A stretch of 64,000 nucleotides of DNA from a virus, in IMG/VR virus record IMGVR_UViG_3300020183_000008, positions 1-64,000 of that record. One strand, 5' to 3'. Of this stretch, positions 17,901-56,364 are shown piece by piece (positions within the stretch are counted from its first letter, which is position 1; each line of letters starts with the position of its first letter). Both the position numbers and the translations under genes were made by a program. The notes below the pieces were generated by a model. The model made no database searches and was not told the origin of the DNA. It saw only the letters and a program-made list of their open reading frames with translations.

Positions 17901-19780
17901 GCTCCTTGGACTCCTGTAGTCCCTTGAACTCCAGTAGCACCTTGAACACCAGTTGATCCTTGAACTCCAGTAGCACCTTGAACACCAGTTGATCCTTGAA
18001 CACCAGTTGATCCTTGGACTCCCGTGGTGCCTTGAACACCTGTTACACCTTGCACTCCCGTAGCACCTTGAACGCCCGTGGTGCCTTGAACACCTGTATT
18101 TCCTTGGACTCCTGTATTTCCTTGGACTCCTGTCGCGCCTTGGACTCCTGTCGCGCCTTGGACTCCTGTCGCGCCTTGAACCCCAGTGCTTCCTTGCACT
18201 CCCGTCTGACCCTGAACCCCAGTGCTTCCTTGCACTCCTGTAGCTCCTTGGACTCCTGTAGCTCCTTGGACTCCTGTGGCTCCTTGGACACCTGTCTGTC
18301 CTTGGACTCCCGTAGTGCCTTGGACACCTGTAGTGCCTTGCACTCCTGTGGTTCCTTGGACTCCAGTGGTGCCTTGAACGCCCGTGGTACCTTGGACTCC
18401 CGTAGTTCCCTGAACACCTGTCGTGCCTTGGACTCCTGTGGCACCCTGAACACCAGTGGCTCCTTGGACTCCCGTAGTTCCCTGAACACCTGTCGTGCCT
18501 TGGACTCCTGTAGAACCTTGTACACCAGTCGCACCTTGGACACCTGTAGCGCCTTGAACTCCTGTCGTGCCTTGGACTCCTGTAGAACCTTGTACACCTG
18601 TAGCGCCTTGGACACCAGTAGCACCTTGTACACCAGTCACACCGTACTGACCAGTTTGACCTTGAGCACCTTGAAGACCATCAGATCCGGTTACACCTTG
18701 AACACCAGTTTCACCTTGAACACCTGTTACACCTTGAACACCAGTTAAACCGACAATACCTGTGATACCTTGAACACCTGTTTGTCCGTAGATACCTGTA
18801 ATACCTTGAACACCTGTTTCACCAATAGCACCTTGCAAACCGGTTTCACCCGCAACACCGGTTTGACCTTGGACACCTGTAAATCCTGAAGGACCTTGTA
18901 CACCTTGTACACCTGTTGATCCTTGAACACCCGTGCGACCTTGAATACCCGTTGATCCTTGAACACCACCAACACCAGTAGCACCTTGAACACCAGTGAA
19001 ACCTGGACCTTGCAGACCTGTAGCACCCTGAACACCAGTGTTTCCGAGGGGACCTTGAACACCTGTCTGCCCAGCAACACCTTGAACACCTGTCTGCCCA
19101 GCGACCCCTGTGGCACCTTGGACACCAGTTTCACCTTGGACACCTGTAGATCCTTGAACTCCCTGAACTCCGGTAGCTCCTTGGACACCAGTGTCGCCTT
19201 GAACTCCGGTTGCACCCTGAACGCCGGTGGTTCCTTGAACACCTTGAACACCTGTGGTTCCTTGAACCCCAGTTCTTCCTTGGACACCTGTTACACCCTG
19301 AACTCCAGTTTGACCTTGAACACCTTGAACACCGGTACCACCTTGAAGACCTTGAGATCCTTGGATACCTTGCAATCCTTGGATACCGGTGTTGCCTTGA
19401 ACACCTTGGACTCCCGTGGTTCCCTGAACACCTGTGCTACCTTGAACACCCGTGGTTCCTGAAATACCTGTACTACCTTGAACACCAGTGAAACCTGGAC
19501 CTTGCAGACCTGTAGCACCTTGTGAGCCGATACCTGTCGTACCTTGCACACCAGTTACACCTTGCAGACCTCTAATACCCGTGGTGCCTTGTTGTGATTG
19601 AATCGTCGCAAACGAAGGCTTCCACTGTGAATCAGAAATGTCGAAGTAGTAAAACGCGTTAATGTTTTTAACGTAGCGTACTTCGTTTTCTTGAGGTGAG
19701 ACAACGCTAGATAAATCAGCGATGTTGTTTACAGCATAGGTGATTGCATAGGCTAATTGTTGGTAAAACGGAGTGCTCAT
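1..19780 (-). CDS. Giant collagen-like phage fibre protein (C-terminus beyond the window)
   Basis: A single frame opens at the ATG at 19780, with AGGA eight bases upstream. I found no in-frame stop down to base 1, giving at least 6593 codons. I checked the non-repeat segments codon by codon and scanned the repeats. Residues 1-64 are a non-collagenous head with several aromatic residues. Gly-Xaa-Yaa triplets begin at residue 65 and follow the hexapeptide G-x-T-G-V-Q, where x is V, T, A, S, N, E, Q or F. Three related globular domains of about 130 residues interrupt the collagen at about residues 1672-1800, 3103-3231 and 4486-4616. Proline is almost absent, and Thr or Gln occupies the Y position. 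Collagen triplets in phage proteins are known to form trimeric rods, so a long virion fibre is the likely role (inference). Frames on the opposite strand are by-products of the repeat. The C-terminus is not visible. Confidence 0.9.
5933..6330 (-). other. Interspersed globular domain C of the collagen protein
   Basis: The third copy, from S-G-Y-S-E-Y-Y-Y to S-F-A-P-A-G-D-M. Inside the domain it is closest to copy B, sharing the [12 protein letters not shown] core. Read in the collagen frame it contains no stop codon. Confidence 0.75.
6331..10084 (-). repeat. Collagen block 3 (18-bp coding tandem repeat)
   Basis: About 1250 residues of G-x-T-G-V-Q collagen between domains B and C. Near 6700-6850 there is a run of near-identical units with x = Ala, which suggests recent local expansion. 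Confidence 0.9.
10088..10479 (-). other. Interspersed globular domain B of the collagen protein
   Basis: The second copy of the roughly 130-residue domain, from S-G-N-S-E-Y-Y to S-F-A-P-A-G-D. It keeps [16 protein letters not shown] and Y-V-D-A-S. It lies about 4.3 kb after domain A and 4.15 kb before domain C in the direction of translation. Confidence 0.75.
10480..14371 (-). repeat. Collagen block 2 (18-bp coding tandem repeat)
   Basis: About 1290 residues of G-x-T-G-V-Q collagen between domains A and B. Sub-blocks recur elsewhere in the gene. For example, 11647-11800 matches 7495-7648 with two mismatches, and a stretch near 13594-13675 matches one near 7702-7795. Confidence 0.9.
14381..14772 (-). 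other. Interspersed globular domain A of the collagen protein
   Basis: About 130 non-collagenous residues entered through G-N-R-G-P-I-S-G and left through F-A-P-A-G-D. The domain shares with the other two copies the motifs S-E-Y-Y, P-G-x-V/I-Y-I-D, W-x-[16 protein letters not shown] and Y-V-D-A-S. It resembles domains I associate with marine phage fibre proteins (from memory, not searched). It may help trimer registration or receptor binding (inference). Confidence 0.75.
14773..19588 (-). repeat. Collagen block 1 (18-bp coding tandem repeat)
   Basis: About 1600 residues of uninterrupted Gly-Xaa-Yaa with the 18-bp, six-residue period G-x-T-G-V-Q. Near its N-terminal end the pattern is less regular, including a G-I-G-S break around 19530 and the only G-P-G triplet I noticed, around 19495. 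The block ends at the first globular domain. Confidence 0.9.
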
Positions 19781-30739: not shown

Positions 30740-32245
30740 TCAATTAAATATTTTATATCTGAAAACTAAAAATCCATCGGAACCATCGGCACCTGAAGCA
30801 CCTACGTTTGCTGAAGTTACAGGGGAATCAGAGCCGACGACACCGCTGGATCCGCGCCCTTGCCCTCCAGCACCTACGCCTGAGTCTTCGGGTGCAGGTG
30901 ACACCTCAACGGTTCTTACTCTATGAAAACCCGCATTGCCGGTTACGTAATAATTTGAACCCTTCCCTCCTGCACTATAACCACTCCCCGCCCCAGAGCC
31001 CCCAGTTGCGGTTGAAGTTCCTATAGGAAGGGCTTCACTTCTTAACCCAGAGATACTTGGGAACAGAGATGGGATATAATTTGATGCTGTTGCTGAACCG
31101 TTACCTCCCGTGCTTCCTGCTCCAGATAAGGTACCTCCACTACCTCCGCCACCTCCAGCATAGGCTTGGTAAACAGAAAAGGTCAAACCTGAGTGAGCGT
31201 TCTCGGACCAATCGTTAGCGCCAAAACCAGGAGAACCTCCTGAAAATTGGTATGGAGTGGACGCACCACCTCTCCCACCGCTGCCGCCGTTACCATTAGA
31301 GCCTCCACCGCTACCGCCGCCACCACCTGCCAAGCCGCTGCCACCATCACCACCAGATTCACCATCTATATTGCTACTTCTTGATCTGGAGACACCGCCT
31401 CCACCACCACCATAGCCTGCACCCCCAGTAGCACCCTGTGTACTGCTCGCACCTACTCCACCATCACCACCCTTCCCACCAGAACCGTAGGTGCCTGCGA
31501 GGTACCCTGTGATTACTATCCCAAGATTCGTAACCTCCCCTATCCCGCCAGAGCCACCAACTACACCACCGGTGCCCCCCAGACCACCAGTGCCAGTGCC
31601 CCCAGTTTTTCCACTAGGCTGAACTGTTGACCCTGAATTTCCGTCATTAGGGGTTCCCGTCGGCAAGGCACCTTGATTCACGGTGCCACTAAAACCACCT
31701 GATCCACCTGAATAAGATGCAACCTTCGCACCATTATTGTCTAATAAATATGTTTCACCGCCTGAAGTTGGCGGGTTGAAATTTTCTAGAGCATTCCCTA
31801 TTGTGCCTTTGGGGCTGCCTCTTGCACCTTTACCACCAATAACTATTTGAAACTGTCCGTTTTGGTAAGCGCCTGAGAAAACAGTAGGGTTACTCAAACT
31901 GGAATAATCGGACAAATTACCTAGACCGCGACTTCCTGCGTAACCTGATGCGCCCCCCTGACCTCCATAAGAGGACTTACCTCCAGCACCCCCTGTCGCA
32001 GCACCACCATTACCACCTGCGCTACCATCGCTTCCCGTTCCTGCCGCTGATGCATCTGGATGTTTCGGACCAAAAGACCCATATAAACCAGCAGAACCGC
32101 CGCCGCCACCACCGATACCCCAAACCTTGATATCGTGCCCCGCAAGATTTGCAGGAAAGATGAAACTCGTTGATGAAGCGAACCGCTGTTCAACTTCAAC
32201 TGTCTTCTGAGTTACCAAAGCACCCATGATGGTTCCAACAAACAT
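30740..32245 (-). CDS. Glycine-rich adhesin-like tail protein
   Basis: The protein has 501 residues; a second ATG six codons in is possible. After an N-terminal beta segment (about 1-45, ending in I-K-V-W-G-I-G-G-G-G-G-G) most of the chain is runs of Gly with Ser, Ala and Thr. It ends in D-G-F-L-V-F-R-Y-K. This composition matches glycine-rich phage tail proteins; in T-even-type gp38 adhesins such runs pack as polyglycine II helices at the fibre tip. It is encoded one base after the preceding stop. Host-receptor contact at a fibre tip is the best guess. Confidence 0.65.
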   Translation of the reverse strand: MFVGTIMGALVTQKTVEVEQRFASSTSFIFPANLAGHDIKVWGIGGGGGGSAGLYGSFGPKHPDASAAGTGSDGSAGGNGGAATGGAGGKSSYGGQGGASGYAGSRGLGNLSDYSSLSNPTVFSGAYQNGQFQIVIGGKGARGSPKGTIGNALENFNPPTSGGETYLLDNNGAKVASYSGGSGGFSGTVNQGALPTGTPNDGNSGSTVQPSGKTGGTGTGGLGGTGGVVGGSGGIGEVTNLGIVITGYLAGTYGSGGKGGDGGVGASSTQGATGGAGYGGGGGGVSRSRSSNIDGESGGDGGSGLAGGGGGSGGGSNGNGGSGGRGGASTPYQFSGGSPGFGANDWSENAHSGLTFSVYQAYAGGGGGSGGTLSGAGSTGGNGSATASNYIPSLFPSISGLRSEALPIGTSTATGGSGAGSGYSAGGKGSNYYVTGNAGFHRVRTVEVSPAPEDSGVGAGGQGRGSSGVVGSDSPVTSANVGASGADGSDGFLVFRYKIFN

Positions 32246-45922: not shown

Positions 45923-46216
45923 GTGTTGGTTTATACTTGTAAAAATAAAGATTGTAAAAAGTACCTGATTAACGGTGATGCACTTTGCAAAGTGATTTCC
46001 GAAAAAGGAGAGGCGTCTCTTGACTTAGAGACAGGTCTCTACACATCCAACGAAAATGAACCTATTTCAGGTCAGGTGCGATGTTTTCACTGTAACAAGC
46101 ACGCCTTGAAAAAAGAAATGTTGTCGCTCGACTGTGAAAAAAGCGAATTGCTGAGGGATCTAGATAACATAGAATCAGAAATTGATAATTTGATGAAGAT
46201 CATGGGGGGTGCATGA
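45923..46216 (+). CDS. Small protein with paired Cys motifs
   Basis: The protein has 97 residues and a GTG start directly after the shared -10. Two cysteine pairs (C6 and C11; C-F-H-C at about 54-57) suggest a zinc ribbon. The C-terminal 35 residues are a predicted coiled coil (L-L-R-D-L-D-N-I-E-S-E-I). It is the first gene of the DnaJ/radical SAM operon and overlaps DnaJ by four bases. Possibly an adapter or regulator; no family is recognised. Confidence 0.6.
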   Translation: MLVYTCKNKDCKKYLINGDALCKVISEKGEASLDLETGLYTSNENEPISGQVRCFHCNKHALKKEMLSLDCEKSELLRDLDNIESEIDNLMKIMGGA

Positions 46217-47073
46217 ACCCCTTCGAAATTCTAGGTTTATCCGATGATGTGACACTGGAGCAAATAAAAAAACGCTACAGACAACTGAGTCTGGAACATC
46301 ACCCCGACAGAGGGGGTGACATCGAAAAATTCAGATCAATCACGGATGCTTACTCTTTAATCAACAGTGAGCAAAACTTAAAAAATTACCGTTCTCGAAA
46401 AAATTCTATTTTTTCTTGGGACTCCGATCTTGAATCCTTTTTCGGTGACATGTTCAACGCAAAAAAACCACCTGCTCGCCGCACGATTTACACAGATGTT
46501 TACATTTCTTTCGAAGAATCTTTCACAGGATGCACCAAACATGTTTTTTATCAGGAAGTTAAAACTTGTCGAGCTTGCGGGGGTGTAGGGGCATCATCTT
46601 TTGATCCTCAAGGAAACGTAGTAAAAACATGCAACGATTGTTTAGGAGCCGGGTTTACTAACCAAACTCATCAAGCAGAGTTAAATATACCGCGCAGTGT
46701 CGCGGATGGTCATCAACTTGTAGCCGCTGATGATGTTGTAGCCACAATCCACATCGTTCCTCACGGGGACATGACCCGAAAAGGATTGGATGTGCTATCG
46801 ATGCTAAAGGTTTCTTTAAGAGATGTATTTAATGGAAGCAGGCTGCACCTTCAAACTTTGCATGGTGAAGTCGCATTTGACTTGCCACGGTGTCTCCAAC
46901 CTGACAAGATAATCAGATTAAAGAAAAAGGGATTTTTTGATGTGCGTCGGAACACCTACGGTGACCATTTGTTGACTATAAAACTTGTTATCCCTGAGTT
47001 TTCTGATGAAAATTGTGAAAAGATTGTGAGGTGCTTGGATGAAATCCAAACGAGAGAATCAAAAACTAGCTGA
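46213..47073 (+). CDS. dnaJ: DnaJ-like co-chaperone
   Basis: The protein has 286 residues. The J-domain at 1-60 has the essential H-P-D at 30-32, and a short linker leads to the client-binding part. Only two C-x2-C-x-G-x-G repeats (C119/C122 and C140/C143) are present instead of four, enough for one zinc site. The two C-terminal beta domains seem shortened. DnaJ recruits DnaK and stimulates its ATPase through H-P-D. It overlaps its neighbours and sits upstream of the radical SAM genes. Chaperoning of a large or modified phage protein is a reasonable inference. Confidence 0.85.
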   Translation: MNPFEILGLSDDVTLEQIKKRYRQLSLEHHPDRGGDIEKFRSITDAYSLINSEQNLKNYRSRKNSIFSWDSDLESFFGDMFNAKKPPARRTIYTDVYISFEESFTGCTKHVFYQEVKTCRACGGVGASSFDPQGNVVKTCNDCLGAGFTNQTHQAELNIPRSVADGHQLVAADDVVATIHIVPHGDMTRKGLDVLSMLKVSLRDVFNGSRLHLQTLHGEVAFDLPRCLQPDKIIRLKKKGFFDVRRNTYGDHLLTIKLVIPEFSDENCEKIVRCLDEIQTRESKTS

Positions 47074-47596
47074 AGAGCCTCTTTTCGTACAGTTCCTCAA
47101 TTCTAAAATCGACTACAACGCAGTGGATTCTTTTTTACTGCGGCTTGAATCAATATTCCCAGAACACGAAGACAAGAAGATTGTCAAGGAGCATCGTGAA
47201 TCTTTGAAGGATCATCATTTGGAAGGTTACAAACTTGTCCAAACAAAATTCAAGGATCACATCGATTACATTCTCTCGTACAAAAACTTCGATTCAGGAT
47301 TCTCATCATGGGCTAACTTTTATCTGTCTAGCTTGCGAGAAAACAAAAGCGAGGATAAAAAAGGTAACTTAGAACGCAGGGTAAGAATTGGAGACAAGAA
47401 CGGTGATTGGTTTTCAGGCATCTTGCTCTACAACTTTAGTCTTTTTTGCCGTTACTATGGAACAGATTTGATTCGCAGATGTGACTCGAAAGTGTATTTC
47501 GTTACTCGTTCGAAATGGGATAAATATTGTTCAGATGAATGCAAAAAAGCGAAGTCATGTAAATACTCAACATCTTCTGTTAAGGTAGAAACATGA
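47039..47596 (+). CDS. Hypothetical protein with a C-terminal zinc-finger-like motif
   Basis: The protein has 185 residues. The last 50 carry F-C-R-Y-Y-G, then R-R-C and Y-C-S-D-E-C-K-K-A, a spacing like CGNR-type zinc fingers. The N-terminal 130 residues are helical and charged. GAGG before the ATG supports the start, which lies 35 bases inside dnaJ. It overlaps the first radical SAM gene by four bases, so co-translation is likely. A DNA- or protein-binding adapter is possible. Confidence 0.6.
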   Translation: MKSKRENQKLAEEPLFVQFLNSKIDYNAVDSFLLRLESIFPEHEDKKIVKEHRESLKDHHLEGYKLVQTKFKDHIDYILSYKNFDSGFSSWANFYLSSLRENKSEDKKGNLERRVRIGDKNGDWFSGILLYNFSLFCRYYGTDLIRRCDSKVYFVTRSKWDKYCSDECKKAKSCKYSTSSVKVET

Positions 47597-48696
47597 AAGA
47601 ACTGATGATCTATCTAAAAACAACAGAAACCTGCCAATTAAATTGTAACCACTGTTTTACTAGCGGCTCAAAGGGTCGAAAGATATTCTTCGATCCAGAC
47701 AAGGTGATATCTTTTTTACAAAGATTAAACAAAACTTTCCCGTGCATTGAAAACGGAGGTACGATATCTTTTCACGGAGGTGAGCCTCTAATCGCACCTT
47801 TGGAAGATATCAAAAAAGTTTATCGAACTTGTAAAGATTTATGGAACGATCCAAAAAAACCACAATCCAAAGTCGCTTGGACTTTTCAGTCTAACCTTGT
47901 TTTTCCTTTGACGGATGAAAAGATAGAACTTATCGATGAAGTTACAGAGAAAAGACAATTTGGAACATCATGGGATTCAAAGATCCGTTTCCCAACGCTG
48001 AAAGCAGAACAGTTATGGGAAAAAAATGTTCGCACCCTTGTGGACAGAGGTTACCCTGTCACGGTGATGGTTTCTTTATCAAAACATGCGCTTGAAAAAG
48101 AACCAAAAGAAATCATACAAAAAATGATAGACCTAGGTATCAAATTTATAGCTTTTGAAAGAATAACAAACAACGGCAATGCAAAAATAAATGATGGATT
48201 GACCCCATCGAACAGAGATTTAGATGCCTACATGTTAAAAATGTGGGAACAAACACTCAAGTACAACTACCAAGAAAAAATCCACAACATTCTTTTAGAT
48301 GGTGTGGTCACATCTTTTTTAAACTCCGCTCACACAGGAGAAAGATGTCGAAACTGTGAGCAAAAAATATTTACCTTGAACGCTGATGGAACAATATCAG
48401 GATGTCCAAATTCAGCGGTAGAAAAGCCCTACGCTCAAATCGACTGGAAGATTTACGACATAATCTTTAGCAAAGGTCGGATGAAAGAAATCGCATGTGA
48501 AGCTGTGAGAAACCCGTTGTGCGCAACGTGCGAAGTAAGGGACATCTGTAACGGGGATTGTCATCAGCTCGCGTGGGAAGGTGATATTTGTGCAGCACCT
48601 AAAAGTCTGATGAAAAAAATAAAAACAAATTTACATTCAAACGATTATTATCATCAGTACGATGATTTGCAGAGATTTAAGGAGGCATCTTTATGA
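47593..48696 (+). CDS. Radical SAM/SPASM enzyme 1
   Basis: The protein has 367 residues. The radical SAM cluster motif C14-x3-C18-x2-C21 is at the N-terminus and G-G-E-P at 62-65 binds the SAM amino group. The C-terminal part has C252, C255, C271, C310, C313, C319, C323 and C333, enough for two auxiliary [4Fe-4S] clusters of the SPASM type. Radical SAM/SPASM enzymes generally modify peptides or protein side chains. It overlaps its neighbours by four bases and shares an operon with a Cys/His-tailed protein and three further radical SAM enzymes. Confidence 0.88.
   Translation: MKELMIYLKTTETCQLNCNHCFTSGSKGRKIFFDPDKVISFLQRLNKTFPCIENGGTISFHGGEPLIAPLEDIKKVYRTCKDLWNDPKKPQSKVAWTFQSNLVFPLTDEKIELIDEVTEKRQFGTSWDSKIRFPTLKAEQLWEKNVRTLVDRGYPVTVMVSLSKHALEKEPKEIIQKMIDLGIKFIAFERITNNGNAKINDGLTPSNRDLDAYMLKMWEQTLKYNYQEKIHNILLDGVVTSFLNSAHTGERCRNCEQKIFTLNADGTISGCPNSAVEKPYAQIDWKIYDIIFSKGRMKEIACEAVRNPLCATCEVRDICNGDCHQLAWEGDICAAPKSLMKKIKTNLHSNDYYHQYDDLQRFKEASL
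48678..48685 (+). promoter_or_regulatory. Strong ribosome binding site (TAAGGAGG)
   Basis: A near-perfect complement of the 16S rRNA 3' end seven bases before the ATG at 48693. It is stronger than other sites in this operon and suggests that this gene is made in larger amounts than the enzymes around it. Confidence 0.6.
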
Positions 48697-49469
48697 GCGA
48701 AGTAATTACAAAAAGAGTGAAAGCTCCTCTGAGTGTTGATGAAATGAAGGATGCTTTTCTTAATAAAGCCGACAGAGACGCAGGTAAAATCAAATATATC
48801 GTTGATTACGTAAACAGCACTATCAAAGGTGATATTCTCCTTCAATATCTATCAAACCTCGAAATTCAAGCGGATTTTGATTTTACAGGAACATCTAAGC
48901 AAGAGAGATTCGACTTTCTTTTGACTTACTTCAAGATGAAAACAATCATCAAGAATAAAGATCTTAATTATGCTGCGAGTGCAGTCGTACTTCGAAGTAA
49001 AGATTTTTCAGGTGAATTCCTGAAGCAAGACTTTCTGACCAATGAAGAGGTCGATGAATTTTATACTTTGCACAAAAATTTAGTGGATAAATGGTCTTTG
49101 ATTGTTGATTCAAGTCTATTGCTATTGATTAGAGTTTCATCACCTCAAACAAGTTTGGATGCATACGAAGATATTTTGGATCCAAATTACTGCGGTGTTA
49201 ATTTTGTCAATCTTTACAATATTTCAGGTTTCTTCAATATTTTTACATCACGCCCTGCAATAAGTGAATTGAAATGGTTCACACACCAGTTCGAAAATTT
49301 TGCTTTTAATAATCAACTCCTATTCAAAATAATCAGCGATTCTGATGAGAGTTTCTTATCATCTTTTAATATGATGCGAGCGACTTTAAATGAGACTTTC
49401 TCAAAAGAATTTTTAGACCAACTAGATCAAGAATTTGATAAATTAGGAAAAGAAAATGCTATTACCTAA
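48693..49469 (+). CDS. Hypothetical protein in the radical SAM operon
   Basis: A 258-residue, mostly helical protein without a recognised family. There are short Phe- and Asn-rich stretches, only one cysteine (in N-Y-C-G-V-N, about 167), and no signal peptide. Its ribosome binding site is the best in the operon. It stands between the first radical SAM gene and the zinc ribbon plus Cys/His-tail pair. It could be a substrate scaffold, leader-binding partner or virion protein (inference). Confidence 0.6.
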   Translation: MSEVITKRVKAPLSVDEMKDAFLNKADRDAGKIKYIVDYVNSTIKGDILLQYLSNLEIQADFDFTGTSKQERFDFLLTYFKMKTIIKNKDLNYAASAVVLRSKDFSGEFLKQDFLTNEEVDEFYTLHKNLVDKWSLIVDSSLLLLIRVSSPQTSLDAYEDILDPNYCGVNFVNLYNISGFFNIFTSRPAISELKWFTHQFENFAFNNQLLFKIISDSDESFLSSFNMMRATLNETFSKEFLDQLDQEFDKLGKENAIT

Positions 49470-49635
49470 AAAACAATATGACGATCGCCTTAAAATATGC
49501 GCATCTTGCCCAAATTACATAAAAGTGCTTGGCATTGGTAGGTGTAAAATTTGCGGTTGCATTATGGCTGTTAAGGCTAAAATATCAGCTACAAAATGCC
49601 CTATCGAAAAATGGGACAAAAAGGGAGAGATGTAA
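49456..49635 (+). CDS. Small zinc-ribbon protein (DUF6171-like)
   Basis: The protein has 59 residues. The motif C15-A-S-C18, then C30-K-I-C33-G-C35 and K-C-P-I-E-K-W at the end, is a pattern I recall from small proteins found in many tailed phages. Four Cys can bind one zinc. The ATG follows AGGAAAAG, overlaps the previous gene by 14 bases, and the stop shares one base with the next start. The function of the family is not known to me. Confidence 0.65.
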   Translation: MLLPKKQYDDRLKICASCPNYIKVLGIGRCKICGCIMAVKAKISATKCPIEKWDKKGEM

Positions 49636-50225
49636 TGGCTACAGTAGGTGCAACCATCACAAGAACTACAATGAAAGATGATGGTAATTCTATACCGAAT
49701 GATCGCAACCCTCGCGCAGTGTGGTTTAGAGAGTCGAATGGAGTTCCTGTCGCTAACCCCCAAGGTGCTTGGAACTATTTCACGCCTGCGACCAACACAG
49801 AAAGATGCGCAGTTTATTTAGGTTATAAAGTAGCTACTTATAGCGAGGCTAACTACGGAGCCGCACAATCCCTCATTACAGCATCCACGATTGTAACAAA
49901 TTTCAGAGAATTAGCTAAAAGATGCACACGGTTTCAATATTTACAACATGGCGCTCAAACCAGGTCTTGTACGACTCGTTTTGACATAAATTTCGGTAAC
50001 CGTATCATAGCTAGAGATGTAGAAAATGCTAGTTTGAATTCCCAGATAGATACAATCACAGGTCCGGCGACCGGATCTATTATTTCAGCATCAGCCTTGA
50101 ATGCTTTTGTGACAAACTTGAATAACAAAGCAGCGGAATCTCTAAATATACAAAATTACTGTGACCACACTTTTTGCCACTGCTCATGTCACTCTAGTTG
50201 TCACGCTAGTCGAGCTCGACGATAG
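49635..50225 (+). CDS. Cys/His-tailed protein, candidate substrate of the radical SAM enzymes
   Basis: 196 residues from the ATG at 49635, which follows AGGGAGAG. Residues 1-165 look like a soluble domain rich in Asn, Ala and Thr, with three scattered Cys (58, 97, 112). The C-terminus is a dense tail: C176, H178, C181, H182, C183, C185, H186, C189, H190, then an Arg-rich end (S-R-A-R-R). The segment T-G-S-I-I-S-A-S-A-L-N-A-F before it resembles sequences near the C-terminus of phage tail proteins (from memory). The gene is followed by three radical SAM genes. A substrate of a RiPP-like modification or a metal-binding virion tip is a hypothesis; neither is proven. Confidence 0.7.
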   Translation: MATVGATITRTTMKDDGNSIPNDRNPRAVWFRESNGVPVANPQGAWNYFTPATNTERCAVYLGYKVATYSEANYGAAQSLITASTIVTNFRELAKRCTRFQYLQHGAQTRSCTTRFDINFGNRIIARDVENASLNSQIDTITGPATGSIISASALNAFVTNLNNKAAESLNIQNYCDHTFCHCSCHSSCHASRARR

Positions 50226-50234
50226 GAATTTGTG

Positions 50235-51383
50235 ATGAGAAAACCTTCAATTCCCACAATAAAAGATGGGTCGAACAACTATTCGGATTTTCTCGAAGCA
50301 AAATATCAGAGTCCAGTTGATGAAAACTATATCAAAAATCTTTTGAAAAAAAAGATCCCTGATGAAGCTGAAATTGAAGTCAGTCTTTTTCAGATCTGTG
50401 GTTTGAAGTGCGCTTTTTGTTGGCAAGACCACGATGATGCAACGGGTTTAAACTCTATTGTTGATAAATTTGATCCCATCTCCGCATTCGTTCAAAAAAA
50501 CCCATCGAAAAAATTCAATGTCCCTTTGATGGGCGGTGAATTGTTCGAAGATTCCAGAACATCTCAGCATTATGAAGACTACTTTACGCTCATAACAAGG
50601 GTAGATGATTTTGCTAGATCTATTGGCAAAAGAATGAAATGGATTCTGGTATCCAACTTATCTTTCAAAAACGCACAACCGGTTTTAGATTTCACAAATC
50701 GCTTAACAGAAGCAAAAAGTGATTGGTGCCTCAGTAGTTCTTTAGACTTCCACGGTAGACCCGTCGCACATTCGATCGAGACTCTCTGGCATAAAAACAT
50801 CATGCTATTCGAAAATAAAATAGCAACAATCAACATGGTTCTAACAGGACCAACCATCCGACGCTTTTTAAATCATGAAACTGATAGATCCTATTTTGAT
50901 CATCTTTATAATTCAGGTTTTCCTCTATCTTTCGACTACTACACACCGGAATCAAATGCAGCGTTGTTGATCCCATCAGATGAAGAATTACTAAATTTCT
51001 TCATCGAAATAGCGGAAAAATACCCGAAAATGGAACCGATGAGTGACTGGTTGAATAATGAACATAACACCATGAGTTGCCTGAGTCTTAACAAACTCAC
51101 TATTTTACCTAACAATCGCATGGTTACTTGTCGACAGTTGGCTTACAAGCCTGAAGATTTCCAAAATAAAATCCACTACGAAAGTAACGCCAACATAATC
51201 GAATCTTTCATCACAAAAAAAGAATGCTTATCCTGCCCTTACTTCAGTAGATGCGGGTTTTCTTGTTTTGTTTTAGATGACCATGTATATTTTTCCAGAA
51301 AACAAAAACTCAAAGAGTGCCTTTACAAAATGATGTTCAGACATATAGAGGCGAAAAATGGATTTAATAATCAAACCAACTGA
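50235..51383 (+). CDS. Radical SAM/SPASM enzyme 2
   Basis: 382 residues from the ATG at 50235, with AGGA six bases before it; a GTG one codon earlier is also open. The cluster motif C55-x3-C59-x2-C62 lies unusually far from the N-terminus after a charged 50-residue extension, which could bind a leader peptide. G-G-E at 100-102 follows. Auxiliary cysteines are C282, C299, C331, C334, C340, C344 and C362. The gene directly follows the Cys/His-tailed protein and overlaps the next enzyme by 26 bases. Confidence 0.85.
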   Translation: MRKPSIPTIKDGSNNYSDFLEAKYQSPVDENYIKNLLKKKIPDEAEIEVSLFQICGLKCAFCWQDHDDATGLNSIVDKFDPISAFVQKNPSKKFNVPLMGGELFEDSRTSQHYEDYFTLITRVDDFARSIGKRMKWILVSNLSFKNAQPVLDFTNRLTEAKSDWCLSSSLDFHGRPVAHSIETLWHKNIMLFENKIATINMVLTGPTIRRFLNHETDRSYFDHLYNSGFPLSFDYYTPESNAALLIPSDEELLNFFIEIAEKYPKMEPMSDWLNNEHNTMSCLSLNKLTILPNNRMVTCRQLAYKPEDFQNKIHYESNANIIESFITKKECLSCPYFSRCGFSCFVLDDHVYFSRKQKLKECLYKMMFRHIEAKNGFNNQTN

Positions 51384-52413
51384 GGTTTGCAATTTCGCTT
51401 GCACTTTTTGCAGCTCGACAAAAATAGCAGATCGTAAAAATCAAGTTTTAGACTTAAATCTCATTTTTGATTTTCTCAAGAGATTCCCTCAAACCAACAC
51501 AATCATCGTGAACGGAGGGGATCCCTTAGTTATAAATCCAAGTTATTATTGGAAAATAATCGAATACCTTGACCAAAACGACCTTCCTGCAATTATTAGT
51601 TTTACGACAAACCTTTGGGATTTTTACAAAAAACCTGAAAAATGGCTAGATTTGTTTAGAAACTACAGACGGCTACAAGTCGCCACATCATTCAATTACG
51701 GTGATACCCGAAGAATTTCAAAAAACAGGGTTTTCACAGAAGATGATTTTTGGAAAATTAGTGACTTGATGAAAGAACTCGTTGGGTATCGACCTGGTTT
51801 CATTTCAGTCATCACTGAAGAAAACGAGGATACAGCGATTGATAATGTTCGACTCGCCAAAAAAATGGGTGTTGAGTGTAAACTAAATTACGCTATGGCT
51901 TCAGGTGCCCAAAACAAGCCTTTTTTACTTTCCAAAATTTATAAAATTTACCTTCAAATTTACAGGCAAGGTTTAGCACCTTGGGAATTCAATACCAAAC
52001 AAATGACTGCACGTTTGAAAGATGTCCCAACTGTATGCCCACTAAATAGAAATTGCGATTCAGGGATTCGATGCCTTCAACCGAACGGAGCGTACCATTC
52101 TTGCGGAGCGTTCGGAGATGACAATTTCGAAGACAACAAAAAATACGAGATCGATTTCAAGAAAGAAGTTTATGAAAAGCAATTTTTCTTACCGTTGAAA
52201 CAGGACTATACGATTCAAAGAATGAAAGACGAATGCCTCACTTGCCCCATGTTTAAGATATGTAACGGTTGCCATAAGACAATCAAGGACTACAAAAATC
52301 TAAATCTCGTGGAAGAGCATTGCTCTTTGATGAAAGAAATAGCACCTGAGATTATAGAAACTAAACTTTTTGCACCAGATATTGTTAAACAAATAGCTGA
52401 ATTACCATTATGA
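51358..52413 (+). CDS. Radical SAM/SPASM enzyme 3
   Basis: The protein has 351 residues. C11-x3-C15-x2-C18 is the radical SAM motif and G-G-D-P at 53-56 the SAM-binding loop. C227, C233, C239 and C249, then C293, C296, C302, C305 and C322 support auxiliary clusters. It lacks the N-terminal extension of enzyme 2. The gene overlaps enzyme 2 upstream by 26 bases and enzyme 4 downstream by four (ATGA), so the three should be made together, possibly as a complex. Confidence 0.85.
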   Translation: MDLIIKPTEVCNFACTFCSSTKIADRKNQVLDLNLIFDFLKRFPQTNTIIVNGGDPLVINPSYYWKIIEYLDQNDLPAIISFTTNLWDFYKKPEKWLDLFRNYRRLQVATSFNYGDTRRISKNRVFTEDDFWKISDLMKELVGYRPGFISVITEENEDTAIDNVRLAKKMGVECKLNYAMASGAQNKPFLLSKIYKIYLQIYRQGLAPWEFNTKQMTARLKDVPTVCPLNRNCDSGIRCLQPNGAYHSCGAFGDDNFEDNKKYEIDFKKEVYEKQFFLPLKQDYTIQRMKDECLTCPMFKICNGCHKTIKDYKNLNLVEEHCSLMKEIAPEIIETKLFAPDIVKQIAELPL

Positions 52414-53333
52414 ACATATCATTAAACCCTAGCTACCTTTGTAATTTGCGATGTGAATTCTGCTATCTAGGTGAAAAATTAGGTGACCCTAAGCGCATCG
52501 ACCTTCAGGTGTTGGATCAGAGACTCGCGGCTGTTAACGAAATTTCAAAAATCGAACAAATTGACCTGTACGGTGGTGAAATTCTTATACTACCCGATGA
52601 TTACTTGAGACAGCTTATGAATGTGATAAAAAATCACTATCAAGGGTCAATAAATTTAATAACAAATCTTACAAAAATGAAAAGATGGTTTATCGAGAGA
52701 GATGATATTGAATTATCAGTTTCTTTTGATTTCGAAGCTAGATCCGCTTTTCAAAATACTTTAAATAATTTGATGACACTCAAAAAGCCTGTGTCGATAT
52801 TGATGCTCGCATCACCTAAATTGATGAGTTTAGATTTTGAAGAAATGCTAAATATTCTAAATCGAATACCTTGCATCCAATCCGTAGAGATAAAGCCTTA
52901 CTCATCGAATCAATACAACCAACTCGAAACAAAATTCTCTGAATACGAAAGTTTTGTAAAGAAATTTGTTGTTGCTTTCGAAACAGAGAAACTCAAGCCT
53001 TTCTTAACGAACGTGCAGTATATCCAAGATTCCATCAGCCTTGAAAGAAATGCTTTTTCCGACAATCATATCTACATAACACCATCTGGAAAATTCGGTG
53101 TATTAGAATTCGATGATAAAGACCATGAATTTTTCTTAGAATTAGATTCTCTCGATGACTATTACGCTTGGGCAACAAAAGAAAAAATGAAAATCAAAAA
53201 CAATTATTTTTGTTCTGAATGCAAATGGCAAGGGCATTGCCTTACAGAGCACTACAGAGAAGTCAAAGATATTACCCATTCATGCAATGGATTCAAACAC
53301 CTGTTGGAGTGGTATGAAAATGCGGGAACATAA
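52410..53333 (+). CDS. Radical SAM enzyme 4 with shortened SPASM region
   Basis: The protein has 307 residues. C11-x3-C15-x2-C18 and G-G-E at 55-57 are intact. At the C-terminus only C268, C271, C277 and C292 remain, so it may carry one auxiliary cluster (Twitch-like) instead of two. It is the shortest of the four. It overlaps the next gene by 20 bases. Different cluster content within one operon suggests a division of labour between enzymes. Confidence 0.82.
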   Translation: MNISLNPSYLCNLRCEFCYLGEKLGDPKRIDLQVLDQRLAAVNEISKIEQIDLYGGEILILPDDYLRQLMNVIKNHYQGSINLITNLTKMKRWFIERDDIELSVSFDFEARSAFQNTLNNLMTLKKPVSILMLASPKLMSLDFEEMLNILNRIPCIQSVEIKPYSSNQYNQLETKFSEYESFVKKFVVAFETEKLKPFLTNVQYIQDSISLERNAFSDNHIYITPSGKFGVLEFDDKDHEFFLELDSLDDYYAWATKEKMKIKNNYFCSECKWQGHCLTEHYREVKDITHSCNGFKHLLEWYENAGT

Positions 53334-53853
53334 AATTAGACAAGCGTTGTATCACAAAATAGCAAATCTCGATGACATACTCGATGATGTAGAAAAGCTA
53401 GAGCCTGTCGTATATCGAGAGAATGAGTCCGACAGAGATACAGCCCTCACCATCATCAGATATTTCCGTGAGGAAATCAGAGAACTTATCTACCCAGCTA
53501 AACCGTTCGTAGTGGCTCTCGTTTACGCGTGTCTTTTAGAAAGACACTTTTGTGAGCCTTTTTATGAATCGATATCCGACCCTGATTTGCTACATGGAAA
53601 TGATAAATGGTTCAAACCGTATTGTGATGAAACCAAAGACATTTACGACCATGCAATTTTTCATCTAGGGGCTGAATTGGATTTCATCGTTAGTGATGAA
53701 TTACAATACATACCTTCACAAATCAGGTCGACTATTGAATATTTCAAAAAAGAATTTTTAATTGAAACTAACTACTTACCTGTGCTGCCGAATCCACCTT
53801 CACCTCTGTCCGACTCATCTAATTCAGACACAACGGTGAAATCTAAATCATAG
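53314..53853 (+). CDS. Hypothetical last protein of the radical SAM operon
   Basis: About 179 residues. The start at 53314 was chosen because GGAG lies five bases upstream and the ATG overlaps the radical SAM gene; a start 27 bases earlier is open. It is mostly helical (F-V-V-A-L-V-Y-A-C-L-L-E-R), with a Pro- and Ser-rich tail (P-N-P-P-S-P-L-S-D-S). The tail is encoded opposite the essential motif V of dUTPase; the genes overlap by 82 bases. No family is recognised. Confidence 0.55.
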   Translation: MKMREHKIRQALYHKIANLDDILDDVEKLEPVVYRENESDRDTALTIIRYFREEIRELIYPAKPFVVALVYACLLERHFCEPFYESISDPDLLHGNDKWFKPYCDETKDIYDHAIFHLGAELDFIVSDELQYIPSQIRSTIEYFKKEFLIETNYLPVLPNPPSPLSDSSNSDTTVKSKS

Positions 53854-54203
53854 TCTTTGACAAGTTTGATCTGACCAATTCTTTCACCGATATAAAATGG
53901 TTGCGCATCTTCTCTCACACGGCGAAATCTGTATTCAATTTCACCCCGATATGAATGGTCGATTACACCCACTGAATTTGCAAGAATCCAGCCAGTTTTT
54001 GAAATAGATGAGCGAGGGAAAGCCAGAAAGCTATAACCCTCAGGTGGTTGAACAGCGATTCCTGTTTTGACTCTTAAAAATTCAGGAGTCTCTTCTACGA
54101 TATCTGCAAAAACATCCCACGCAGCATCATCGCTATGAGCACGTTTAGGAGGCAGAGAACTACCCCGAAGCAATTTTACTTTGACTTGAAATTTTGAAGA
54201 CAT
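53772..54203 (-). CDS. dut: dUTP pyrophosphatase (dUTPase)
   Basis: The protein has 143 residues, the usual length for a trimeric dUTPase. All five motifs are visible: D-A-A-W-D-V-F near 26-32, P-R-S-S-I at 63-67, G-V-I-D-H-S-Y-R-G-E-I at 79-89, G-E-R-I-G-Q at 106-111 and G-E-G-G-F-G-S-T-G at 134-142. It hydrolyses dUTP to dUMP, keeping uracil out of phage DNA. A strong GAGGGGG site precedes the ATG. It stands alone on the minus strand, and its message would start at a TATTCT element shared with the divergent gene. Confidence 0.95.
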   Translation of the reverse strand: MSSKFQVKVKLLRGSSLPPKRAHSDDAAWDVFADIVEETPEFLRVKTGIAVQPPEGYSFLAFPRSSISKTGWILANSVGVIDHSYRGEIEYRFRRVREDAQPFYIGERIGQIKLVKDYDLDFTVVSELDESDRGEGGFGSTGK

Positions 54204-54235: not shown

Positions 54236-54841
54236 ATGCTAAACGATTTTTTCCGTAAAGGCTTTTACACAAATTGTTTAGAAAAAACACATTGTGATGA
54301 AATGCTACACATAGTCCAGTCCATAAATTTTATAGAAAGCCTAGATTACAGAGATGTTGGTTACAAACCACCTCTTATTGCTGAATGGGATGATATCGAT
54401 GATCCCATCGTGTCTGCTCATAACTGCCAAGAAAACTTGAAAAAGTATTGGTTAAAATTCAAAGAATACCTAAAACCTTTAGAAAATATAGCGGGTAGAT
54501 TCGACTCCGGTTCTGTAATTGTCAATAACTTCCCAAAAGGTCACGGTATGAATTGGCATTCAGACACGGTTGACACAGCGTTTGTGCAAATGCTCATATA
54601 TTTGTCAAAAGATTATTTTGACAAAGATGATGGGGGTTATTTGCAAATAGGTGATAGTTTTATCCTACCTAATCATGCTACGATGGTCATTATGAACAAT
54701 ATCTCACCTACAATGTTACATAGGGTAGAGCCGCTCATCACAGAAAAAGAGCGATTGACCGTTGTCTTTCGATACGGGTACATGAACAACACCCTTACAA
54801 AAAAAAGGCTTCTCACCATGAAAGGTGAAATCCGTGATTGA
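54236..54841 (+). CDS. 2-oxoglutarate/Fe(II) oxygenase (prolyl-4-hydroxylase-like)
   Basis: The protein has 201 residues. The iron ligands are H108-x-D110 in G-M-N-W-H-S-D and H162 in T-M-L-H-R-V. R173 in E-K-E-R-L-T-V-V-F-R-Y is the likely 2-oxoglutarate anchor, and the spacing fits the P4H-like fold. Such enzymes hydroxylate proline or other side chains. The sequence G-H-G-M-N-W-H-S-D is typical. It is the first gene of a three-gene operon and is followed by a paralogue without the metal ligands. The substrate is unknown; collagen-like or other virion proteins are candidates. Confidence 0.85.
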   Translation: MLNDFFRKGFYTNCLEKTHCDEMLHIVQSINFIESLDYRDVGYKPPLIAEWDDIDDPIVSAHNCQENLKKYWLKFKEYLKPLENIAGRFDSGSVIVNNFPKGHGMNWHSDTVDTAFVQMLIYLSKDYFDKDDGGYLQIGDSFILPNHATMVIMNNISPTMLHRVEPLITEKERLTVVFRYGYMNNTLTKKRLLTMKGEIRD

Positions 54842-55439
54842 ATTGGATCTCACAAGTTACTTTCACAAAGGCTACACCGTTACCGATTTAGGATCGGATG
54901 TCGATGGAATCCTAGCTGATATGAGAAATCAAAATTGGGTTGAAAAAGATGACCTTTTGAAACCGGATTGGGACAATCATTCACATCTCAATAAAGCTAC
55001 TGATTATCTTTATGATGCTGTCAGAGATTTCTCTCAGTCCGGCTATTATTCGTGGTTCACGAAAATTTACGGTGGATTTACGCAGCGAACCATCATGGCG
55101 AGAAAATGGACAGGTCAAAGCACGAACTGGTTCAACGAATCTCGTCTAGGGGCATTCAACGCAAATATTCTCTTTCTCGGTAAAGGTGACCCGACCGTAA
55201 GCCTTCAAATCGGACAAGCCGATTGTGATGAAAATGGTCGAATCGAAGGTGTGATTGAGAATGTTTCAACAATTCACCCTAAACACGGAACACTGGTTAC
55301 CTTGTACAACATAAACCCTTGCGTTGTTCGAAGATTTTTGAACGAAGAAAACACAGGGGAATGGTATACTCTGCATTTCTATCTTGGATTTATTGAAAAC
55401 ACTCTGTTGAGAGAGGTTTCAGGTGTTCCACTTATTTAA
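54834..55439 (+). CDS. Catalytically dead paralogue of the 2OG oxygenase
   Basis: 201 residues from the GTG at 54834, with AAAGGTG before it; the start overlaps the upstream stop by eight bases. It aligns end to end with the previous protein (F-H-K-G-Y near 10-14, N-W-F-N-E-S at 98-103, L-Q-I-G around 124-127, H-G-T-L-V-T-L-Y-N-I-N-P near 151-162). The iron ligands are lost: H108 and D110 correspond to F100 and E102, H162 to R166, and the 2-oxoglutarate Arg to Trp. It may pair with the active copy as a structural or substrate-binding subunit. Confidence 0.65.
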   Translation: MIELDLTSYFHKGYTVTDLGSDVDGILADMRNQNWVEKDDLLKPDWDNHSHLNKATDYLYDAVRDFSQSGYYSWFTKIYGGFTQRTIMARKWTGQSTNWFNESRLGAFNANILFLGKGDPTVSLQIGQADCDENGRIEGVIENVSTIHPKHGTLVTLYNINPCVVRRFLNEENTGEWYTLHFYLGFIENTLLREVSGVPLI

Positions 55440-56364
55440 AAATACCTATCTCGACATTCAGGGTACATCCAATCCGACCGGTTTTAAGGCACTCTCAACT
55501 GATAATTTCACGATCAAAGATGTAGCTGCTTTAAAAAGTAACGAAAAAATAATTTATTCTGTACCGAAATTTACTTTCACAAAAATTGTGATCGAATACA
55601 TTAAAGAATTGTTCCCTAGTGCATACCCACCGTTGATCATGGAAATTTACGGGATTGTTATGGCGAGAATGACCTATCAGCTCGCCTACCTCACGGATAA
55701 TCAAACAAGAAACACTTATATTGATTGTAATCTTCCATCGGATTCAATAAAAGTTCTGTTGGAAATAACAAAATATAAAGGTTTATTTGAAGGTGATTTC
55801 AAAAGACATGTTGGTATAGAATGGTTACTTTGTGATTATTTCAATGATGGGATTTATTCAGATGAATTTCAAAAAAGATTTCGAGAACTTTTGGTAAAAA
55901 ATATTGTTTACTCGGTTCAAGAGATAAAACATGAAATGTTGTATAAAGTTTTTAATCTTCCGAAAATGTACTTGAACTATAACAACGTAGAAGAATTGTT
56001 TTCAAAAGATATCGGAGTCCAATTCTTATTCGACCCTAGCCTAAACAACGCGACTCACCTTATGACTCGATATAAGATCGAAGACATAGCGGATTTGTTT
56101 CATACATTTACCAAAATGTATAACAAGGGGTACGACAAAGCCAAATACCAAGAAATGACTCTTTTAAGTCTTTTCCTACTCAAAGCGATCTCTTGTTTAA
56201 AATCAGGGAATTGCGATGCGATGATGAAAGAAGAAATACAAAGAGATTTCTCTATTATTTTTGGACATCATCGATTCATGAGAAAAATCAATTGTCTTTT
56301 GATAGATTGGATTTACCAACAAAAAAGGCAAAAAAATAAAGAACTTGAAGTATTAATTCTTTAA
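55423..56364 (+). CDS. Hypothetical protein after the oxygenase pair
   Basis: The protein has 313 residues and a GTG start six bases after GAGAGG, overlapping the paralogue gene by 17 bases. It is mostly helical and rich in Lys, Tyr and Phe, with no signal peptide, metal motif or recognised family. The co-operonic position suggests a role with the oxygenases. The 3' end overlaps the convergent acetyltransferase gene by 12 bases. Confidence 0.6.
   Translation: MFHLFKNTYLDIQGTSNPTGFKALSTDNFTIKDVAALKSNEKIIYSVPKFTFTKIVIEYIKELFPSAYPPLIMEIYGIVMARMTYQLAYLTDNQTRNTYIDCNLPSDSIKVLLEITKYKGLFEGDFKRHVGIEWLLCDYFNDGIYSDEFQKRFRELLVKNIVYSVQEIKHEMLYKVFNLPKMYLNYNNVEELFSKDIGVQFLFDPSLNNATHLMTRYKIEDIADLFHTFTKMYNKGYDKAKYQEMTLLSLFLLKAISCLKSGNCDAMMKEEIQRDFSIIFGHHRFMRKINCLLIDWIYQQKRQKNKELEVLIL

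Follow-up and report, generated by a model that had tools for sequence, protein, structure and literature searches.

Small proteins encoded directly behind fibre genes are known from the T-even phages, in which gp38 is specified by a small gene immediately after the fibre gene and has been proposed to sit on the fibre end. We know of no radical-SAM enzymes or CHxS tail for gp38. In the radical-SAM/SPASM RiPP systems (DarE, PapB, GrrM, YhhB and others), a ribosomal substrate is encoded beside enzymes that carry CxxxCxxC and the full SPASM Cys set, its core is C-terminal and repeated, and 2OG oxygenases are present in some. The His-Xaa-Ser (Hxs) system combines recurring HxS triplets with several radical-SAM enzymes. 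The MAT fibres of Bdellovibrio are trimeric S74 fibres used for prey recognition (PMC10769870), and the main text of that paper contains neither 'radical' nor 'post-translational'.

The locus described here was found in a stretch of 64,000 nucleotides (the window), taken from the virus record IMGVR_UViG_3300020183_000008, which is 155,270 bases long. It encodes P0001, a protein ending in CHxS repeats, beside several radical-SAM enzymes, and has features in common with each of the systems above. As in the RiPP systems, the gene of a presumed ribosomal substrate with a repeated C-terminal core neighbours those of CxxxCxxC enzymes, with the SPASM Cys set complete, and of a 2OG oxygenase. Unlike in those systems, the CHxS substrates are 120-360 aa long without apparent export or cleavage, and the system is phage-borne, fibre-linked and contains no enzyme reaching a family cut-off. 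It works like a radical-SAM RiPP system, although a released peptide is an improbable product. The tail shares recurring HxS triplets with Hxs, but the CHxS repeats are four residues long and P0001 matches no Hxs substrate model (0 NCBIfam families at E ≤ 0.1); among the Hxs enzymes, HxsC scored 24.6 and 19.1 bits against 267.9, and HxsB was absent from the best 25 families. S74 proteins are found near the CHxS module in Bdellovibrionota-family genomes, but unlike the MATs with their signal peptides these neighbours mostly have a prepilin start, and P0001 itself lacks S74 (no Pfam match). The likeness to gp38, by description only, is that in many relatives of P0001 the tail gene is small and lies shortly after a fibre gene, mostly with rSAM1 between them. 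Judged by sequence, the CHxS system fits no named family tested, whether Hxs, sulfatase maturase or RiPP equivalogs.

Translation of P0001 gave a C-terminal end of CHCSCHSSCHASRARR, in which residues 176-190 read CDHTFCHCSCHSSCH, that is, five Cys and four His in 15 residues, followed by ASRARR and the stop. This composition, the Arg-rich end and the claim that nothing in the window is denser in Cys and His formed the original prediction, and all of this held. Among window ORFs of at least 40 aa, of which those scoring at least 6 were listed, the maximum was 9 Cys+His within 16 residues at the P0001 C-terminus, and the runners-up reached 6 (31948-32130, with His only, and 49515-49763, antisense to the P0001 gene). 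The density is not a composition effect, since 0 of 20,000 shuffles of the P0001 residues reached 9 Cys+His in 15. P0001 starts with ATG at 49635, in a TAATG overlap with the stop of the upstream 59-aa gene; a longer frame opens at 49596. What the prediction missed is that the tail is one case of a larger repeated module, CHxS-CHxS-CHxS-RxRR. The conserved part of the Cys/His end consists of residues 181-196 only, and C176-F180 and C183 occur in few copies.

The body of P0001 had been thought to resemble phage structural proteins; this was not borne out, as we obtained no Pfam match, no NCBIfam family at E ≤ 0.1 and no PDB match by sequence or fold. The sole PHROG match, phrog_35144, is confined to the last 23 residues, a first sign that the tail is conserved independently of the body. 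Since a structural model of the body (pLDDT 74.9) gave no usable PDB match and no solved fold in the fold searches, there is no structural pointer to a fibre. Fold matches in BFVD were family members and three 504-660 aa proteins of Myoviridae sp. ctijX18. A zinc finger was considered for the tail and rejected, as no family matched and the enzymes would be left unexplained. A c-type haem site was likewise rejected, since the CxxxCH spacing is not the usual one for such sites.

Table 1. Features of the P0001 gene cluster (window coordinates)
Feature	Position	Strand	Basis
rSAM1, radical-SAM/SPASM enzyme 1, co-occurs with tail in relatives	47593..48696	+	family searches; cluster ligands invariant in 44 sequences
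Conserved partner, phrog_20767, 258 aa	48693..49469	+	PHROG match; AlphaFold2 pLDDT 90.1
59-aa Cys-rich protein, DUF6171; stop overlaps P0001 start	49456..49635	+	family match
P0001, CHxS-tail protein, presumed substrate, 196 aa plus stop	49635..50225	+	translation
Cys/His-dense stretch, P0001 residues 176-190	50160..50204	+	translation
Conserved module CHxS-CHxS-CHxS-RxRR, P0001 residues 181-196	50175..50222	+	family alignment, tail tally
rSAM2, radical-SAM enzyme 2	50232..51383	+	phrog_1802
rSAM3, radical-SAM enzyme 3	51358..52413	+	PF04055, phrog_1802
Radical-SAM enzyme 4	52410..53333	+	PF04055, phrog_1802
188-aa accessory protein	53287..53853	+	phrog_20737; related ORFs in 22/72 single-copy-type loci
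2OG-Fe(II) oxygenase, candidate further modifier	54236..54841	+	PF13640
204-aa ORF, without family match	54825..55439	+	grouped with oxygenase only in search seeded partly by itself
313-aa accessory protein	55423..56364	+	related ORFs in 56/72 single-copy-type loci

The P0001 gene is flanked by four radical-SAM genes, three downstream and one upstream beyond the genes for the 59-aa protein and the phrog_20767 partner (Table 1). The model of this partner had no close PDB match, the best rows (Z ~4, 58-65 residues, rmsd ~3-4, within residues 1-67) being not above background. An ORF that we take to be DnaJ-like (phrog_14336, 46213-47073) lies just upstream of the cluster, and a presumably dUTPase-like ORF is located within it on the opposite strand, at 53772-54203 (-). 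Having a core-like C-terminus beside radical-SAM/SPASM enzymes whose weak best matches are RiPP maturases, the locus could be read as encoding a released RiPP, the modified C-terminus being an antibacterial or superinfection peptide and the body a long leader. This is very unlikely in our view, as the body is large and conserved and nothing follows the module in the protein. Scans of ten cluster proteins with Pfam and NCBIfam also gave no peptidase, transporter, export or leader-protease family, and the linkage to fibres described below (25 of 40 clusters) points away from release.

Searches with single sequences did not uncover the family. P0001 found no direct relatives in IMG/VR and none among phage records by tblastn (best E 6), where it missed the tail genes of cultured phages; rSAM1 found no relatives in IMG/VR, and a type-B protein (L126) and a marine protein (L174) found none in phage records. 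A profile search for C-terminal Cys/His tails had been proposed with the original prediction, and motif scanning combined with profile searching succeeded in revealing a widespread family. A scan of IMG/VR DNA for CHxxCHxxCHxxRxR, whose totals are lower bounds, brought the tail ORFs ending exactly in this motif plus Arg-stop to at least 130, in at least 108 loci (at least 118 distinct). With later loci included, there are at least 194 tail copies with at least 145 different DNA sequences. Across these copies both Cys codons and both His codons are used at every tail position and the Arg codons are mixed too. Since DNA and codons vary in this way, selection acts at the protein level, and we rejected the idea that the tail arose by repetition or recombination of DNA. 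In these counts we left out L006, L166, L172 and stretches in which the motif does not end an open frame, and removed Atu_ph07 duplicates (L155, L239 and L240, and L276 also from the 194-copy and 81-locus counts); the loci are not independent, several contigs being near-copies.

The scan pattern itself fixes eight tail residues. Beyond these, the 118 distinct tails listed have Ser at -13 in 109, Ser or Asn at -9 in 115, Ser at -5 in 106 and Gly at -3 in 106 cases; the last Arg, found in 118 of 118, was demanded in that tally, but it had been universal in earlier true tails without being demanded. In a 74-row alignment, from which open-ended frames were left out, the mean share of the top residue was 0.86 over 16 tail columns vs 0.42 for the 154 columns of the body; the pattern itself fixes the majority of the invariant tail residues. 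The columns independent of the pattern gave 1.0 for the last Arg, 0.88 for Ser at 184 and 192, and 0.86 for position 194. Thus the body of the P0001 family diverges while its tail is constant. A profile made without the window matched the whole of P0001 at 1.4e-24 and the body alone at 5.9e-11. Two layouts were observed: the protein is encoded either once behind rSAM1, mostly with a length of 170-360 aa, or as a tandem pair whose members have about 125-140 aa. Some copies have four or five repeats (L157, L111). No account of the module was found in the open-licence papers searched, where a text search with the tail peptide matched unrelated words only. As far as these searches go, (CHxS)n, usually followed by RxRR-stop, is a widespread and previously undescribed C-terminal module.

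We then approached the family from the enzyme, searching IMG/VR with 44 aligned rSAM1 sequences. The best 80 loci comprised 44 with strict tails, 27 with variant tails, nine in which the contig ends early and none without a tail, the labels strict, none and cut being assigned by script and the 27 variants and nine undecidable loci sorted by eye. A CH-repeat tail was therefore present in 71 of 71 decidable loci, so that the arrangement that marks RiPPs, a precursor gene beside a dedicated modifying enzyme, occurs in all of them; the same domain without a Cys/His tail in the same operon was found in none. Among the variants, 23 end in CHSN-CHxx-CHGS-I/L without RxRR, three read CHSxCHSSHSSRNRR, with the third Cys missing, and one has a broken third repeat (CHSSCHSNVTCYNSRGRR). 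The Arg end is thus dispensable, and so is a complete set of three repeats. The CHGS-I/L tails correspond to one enzyme clade in the rSAM1 tree.

The association also holds from the side of the tail, since none of the 81 listed loci with at least 6 kb downstream of the tail lacks a radical-SAM ORF. Half of the tail ORFs listed (75 of 149) stand directly behind a radical-SAM ORF at a spacing of -26 to +46 nt, often overlapping; the others are of the tandem type, lie at contig ends or are separated from the enzyme by a further gene, which is the case in the window. An iterated profile placed the phrog_20767 partner in 162 of the 172 loci having the partner or at least 1.2 kb downstream. Among 50,697 phage records, rSAM1, rSAM2 and rSAM3 each match the same seven, all with a tail gene, which represent six phages: FLC6, FLC8, SURPRISE13/S13, Atu_ph07 (twice), Phosso and pPa_SNUABM_DT01. 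In all six cultured phages the gene right after rSAM1 ends in CHxSCHxSCHx(S/A)RxRR. Such two-way co-occurrence is what an enzyme and its substrate would show. The pairing of radical-SAM enzyme and tail substrate that it implies is strongly supported, and it is very probable that the clustered enzymes modify the P0001 tail.

It could be argued that the tail is a bare metal site: its Cys and His would hold Zn, Fe or Cu and cap a fibre or spike with no covalent modification, and the radical-SAM enzymes would have another target close by. In favour, CHxxCHxxCH offers many ligands, the P0001 model places the tail after a strand, and metal-capped phage spikes exist. A Cys-crosslinked cap may likewise be considered. 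A bare metal site would not be expected to keep company with rSAM1 at every decidable locus (71 of 71) across very different genomes and also on chromosomes among housekeeping genes, and it leaves the fixed Ser and the terminal RxRR unexplained; we therefore consider it unlikely.

SPASM auxiliary clusters are bound by a Cys pattern of Cx9-15Gx4C, Cx2Cx5Cx3C and a final C. In rSAM1 this set is complete (C255, G266, C271, C310, C313, C319, C323 and C333), and all of these residues are invariant in 44 sequences, as are C14, C18 and C21 of the CxxxCxxC motif that binds the SAM cluster. rSAM1 reached no curated NCBIfam cut-off, the SPASM model scoring 26.8 bits against a cut-off of 27. Checked for an RRE or PqqD-like domain, it was found to begin at the radical-SAM core without an N-terminal extension. 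The nearest solved relatives, all weak, were 8vpo (a radical-SAM protein without a specific name), 4k36 (anSME, E 2.7e-8) and 5wgg. Candidates for the bond made at the tail are a cross-link from Cys to His or to the backbone, oxidation of Cys or Ser, or capture of a metal by the modified site.

One form of Cys oxidation would be the formation of formylglycine, in which rSAM1 acts on tail Cys as anSME does and the resulting aldehydes couple to amines of the host surface. Sulfatases are modified at Cx(P/A)SR, which the last repeat, CHxSR, resembles, and anSME is both among the closest solved relatives and the second NCBIfam match. Its score, however, is far under the family cut-off (44.5 vs 349). 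We take the catalytic base of anSME to be Asp277, beside an auxiliary-cluster Cys (PCDF). On alignment with 4k36, GCPN of rSAM1 falls on PCDF, so that Pro occupies the position of the Asp and the catalytic residue of sulfatase maturases is absent. This weakens the formylglycine reading, which we regard as quite improbable.

In many relatives the genes in front of the tail point to tail fibres. Of 40 tail clusters (39 records), 25 are preceded in the same orientation, at no more than 3 kb, by a phrog_19602 fibre C-terminal chaperone domain, vs 0.83 expected; of the other 15, 12 had no phrog_19602 match in the record and three had one elsewhere only. In most of the 25, rSAM1 lies between the fibre gene and the tail gene; tandem-type tails start 76-149 bases behind the fibre end, and in one record with both layouts a fibre precedes each. 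Five aligned phrog_19602 fibre ends match the phi29-type preneck appendage protein (3gqh, E 3.4e-4). Marine loci have, in order, a large structural-type gene, a phrog_473 virion protein, a tail fibre whose end is chaperone-like and self-cleaving, a 2OG oxygenase and/or cupin, rSAM1, the tail, the partner and more radical-SAM genes. S74 is not a general phage neighbour, being present in nine of 39 phage or viral records and mostly not near the tail. The fibre link holds for most relatives but is not seen in the window's genome: its own record yielded neither the phrog_19602 fibre domain nor S74, and the upstream neighbours are not fibre genes. Elsewhere in the window, a 6,593-aa open frame occupies 2-19780 (-), and its 15000-19780 part matches many tail-fibre and collagen-like minor-tail PHROGs. 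Some tandem tail proteins of ~127 aa directly behind a fibre end (L217 4689-5452, L215 11196-11953 and similar) are accompanied by a different radical-SAM set, many members of which have CxxxCxGC.

Genes for fibre chaperones of the Tfa type are usually located directly downstream of fibre genes, which is also where the tail gene lies in many relatives. P0001 might accordingly be an assembly chaperone that stays outside the particle. This proposal gives no reason for several radical-SAM genes, and in Atu_ph07 the tail gene falls within a cluster of virion-protein genes, so we think it improbable. According to the Atu_ph07 report, 131 virion proteins were identified and three clusters hold most of them, one being CDS 170-215 (PMC6102473). 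The CHxS-tail protein is gp170, the first gene of that cluster, and the numbering in that text agrees with RefSeq at gp181 and gp198. All three clusters are exactly 46 genes wide as given there, so the start at 170 may be a window edge of that analysis. A virion location of the tail protein is suggested by this proteomics cluster. The expectation of a modified virion protein rather than a secreted peptide is thus supported in part, by the radical-SAM pairing, the fibre neighbourhood and the Atu_ph07 cluster, presence in the virion being putative.

In the consulted portions of the FLC6, S13 and DT01 papers, radical-SAM genes are classed as annotated, accessory or metabolic, and a substrate is not named. 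The receptor of S13 (SURPRISE13) is stated there to be flagella (PMC11898562), which neither supports nor opposes an attachment tip. The Campylobacter phages CP220 and CPt10 have 11-12 radical-SAM genes, five in an exchangeable module, and no known substrate (PMC2853527).

Taken with the cluster composition, these observations suggest a mechanism. P0001 would be made ribosomally, and the radical-SAM/SPASM enzymes encoded beside it, chiefly rSAM1, would then change the chemistry of its CHxS-CHxS-CHxS-RxRR end; the 2OG-Fe(II) oxygenase perhaps finishes the modification, and the phrog_20767 partner may help. The body would stay attached and join an attachment fibre that is trimeric and self-chaperoned. 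The distal end is the most probable site, and a modified, Arg-capped finger would then face the bacterial surface. We strongly infer action on the repeats from the co-occurrence of tail and enzymes; that the carrier joins the fibre is suggested by gene position in relatives, and that the tip faces the target cell by the need of phages and predators alike to hold a bacterial surface. That P0001-type proteins are surface or virion proteins linked to fibres is likely, and we consider an attachment role at the fibre tip to be evenly balanced. The reading as a whole, in which a surface protein associated with the fibre, probably with its tip, is modified at the C-terminus by phage- and predator-borne radical-SAM enzymes and serves bacterial attachment, is one that we favour with some reserve. 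The radical-SAM genes of phages, so far listed as metabolic extras without a substrate, would gain a defined 16-residue target, and it would become testable why large phages carry many of them. If true, covalent peptide chemistry would be added to the means by which phages hold cells, and a new group of enzymes acting on a very short repeated motif (CHxS) would be recognised.

The module is not restricted to viruses. The CHxS motif was found in 19 stretches of genome contigs, of which 16 are true C-termini, and nine genomes reached through Bdellovibrionota-type loci carry the tail protein (one record without a group name). In three of them (G001-G003) the full module lies amid ordinary chromosomal genes, the flanking genes including pyruvate kinase and Ada; ribosomal protein S20, acyl-CoA dehydrogenase and thiolase; and methionyl-tRNA synthetase. 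A T4-type capsid gave no match in the nine genomes, a weak result as the same search matched nothing in its controls. The strict tail pattern was present in five of 95 genomes of one family, so its occurrence is sporadic. In a quick rSAM1 tree of 61 sequences, which is limited by long branches and short contigs (L259, L368), six Bdellovibrionota-family rows are scattered among phage rows, forcing at least three changes, and the window's rSAM1 belongs to a supported ten-member group whose other members are four Bdellovibrionota-family rows and five phage rows.

Peptidase_S74 proteins, most with a prepilin (N_methyl) start, stand beside the module in G001-G004, and in the five genomes with long contigs (G001-G005) the same contig encodes both the tail and S74, at most about 16 kb apart. 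Prepilin-like starts were found in five of 200 ORFs of the chromosomal loci, all in the module-side group. Tentatively, viruses and predator-group bacteria may share a repeatedly exchanged radical-SAM cassette that rebuilds the exposed fibre tip into a novel modified peptide (cross-linked, aldehyde-bearing or metal-holding), host or prey then being gripped by a post-translational group instead of unmodified amino acids. This would be the first case of a virion protein modified by radical-SAM enzymes that a virus encodes. With such a cassette also lying beside chromosomal prepilin-S74 fibres, phage adsorption and bacterial predation would have a tool in common.

The prepilin-S74 proteins, encoded at L353 16158-17192, L356 5058-6242, L357 9628-10917 and L365 12547-16215, are possible pilus-fibre chimeras. 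A companion of ~200 aa occurs at L356 6253-6804, L353 17198-17824, L357 10929-11525, L365 14646-15245 and L259 1563-2156, 51-63% identical to the first alignment row. Pfam scans of three of these companions gave no match, and a profile search found matches in two loci only, both from Bdellovibrionota genomes. Its identification as a phage fibre C-terminal domain, which it resembles by eye, was rejected, the profile comparison being not significant (5.8% probability, E 0.0065). ORFs of 100-136 aa with a twin-Arg-like start adjoin the prepilin-S74 genes at L356 4675-5070, L357 9214-9594, L353 17931-18230 and L365 12140-12547.
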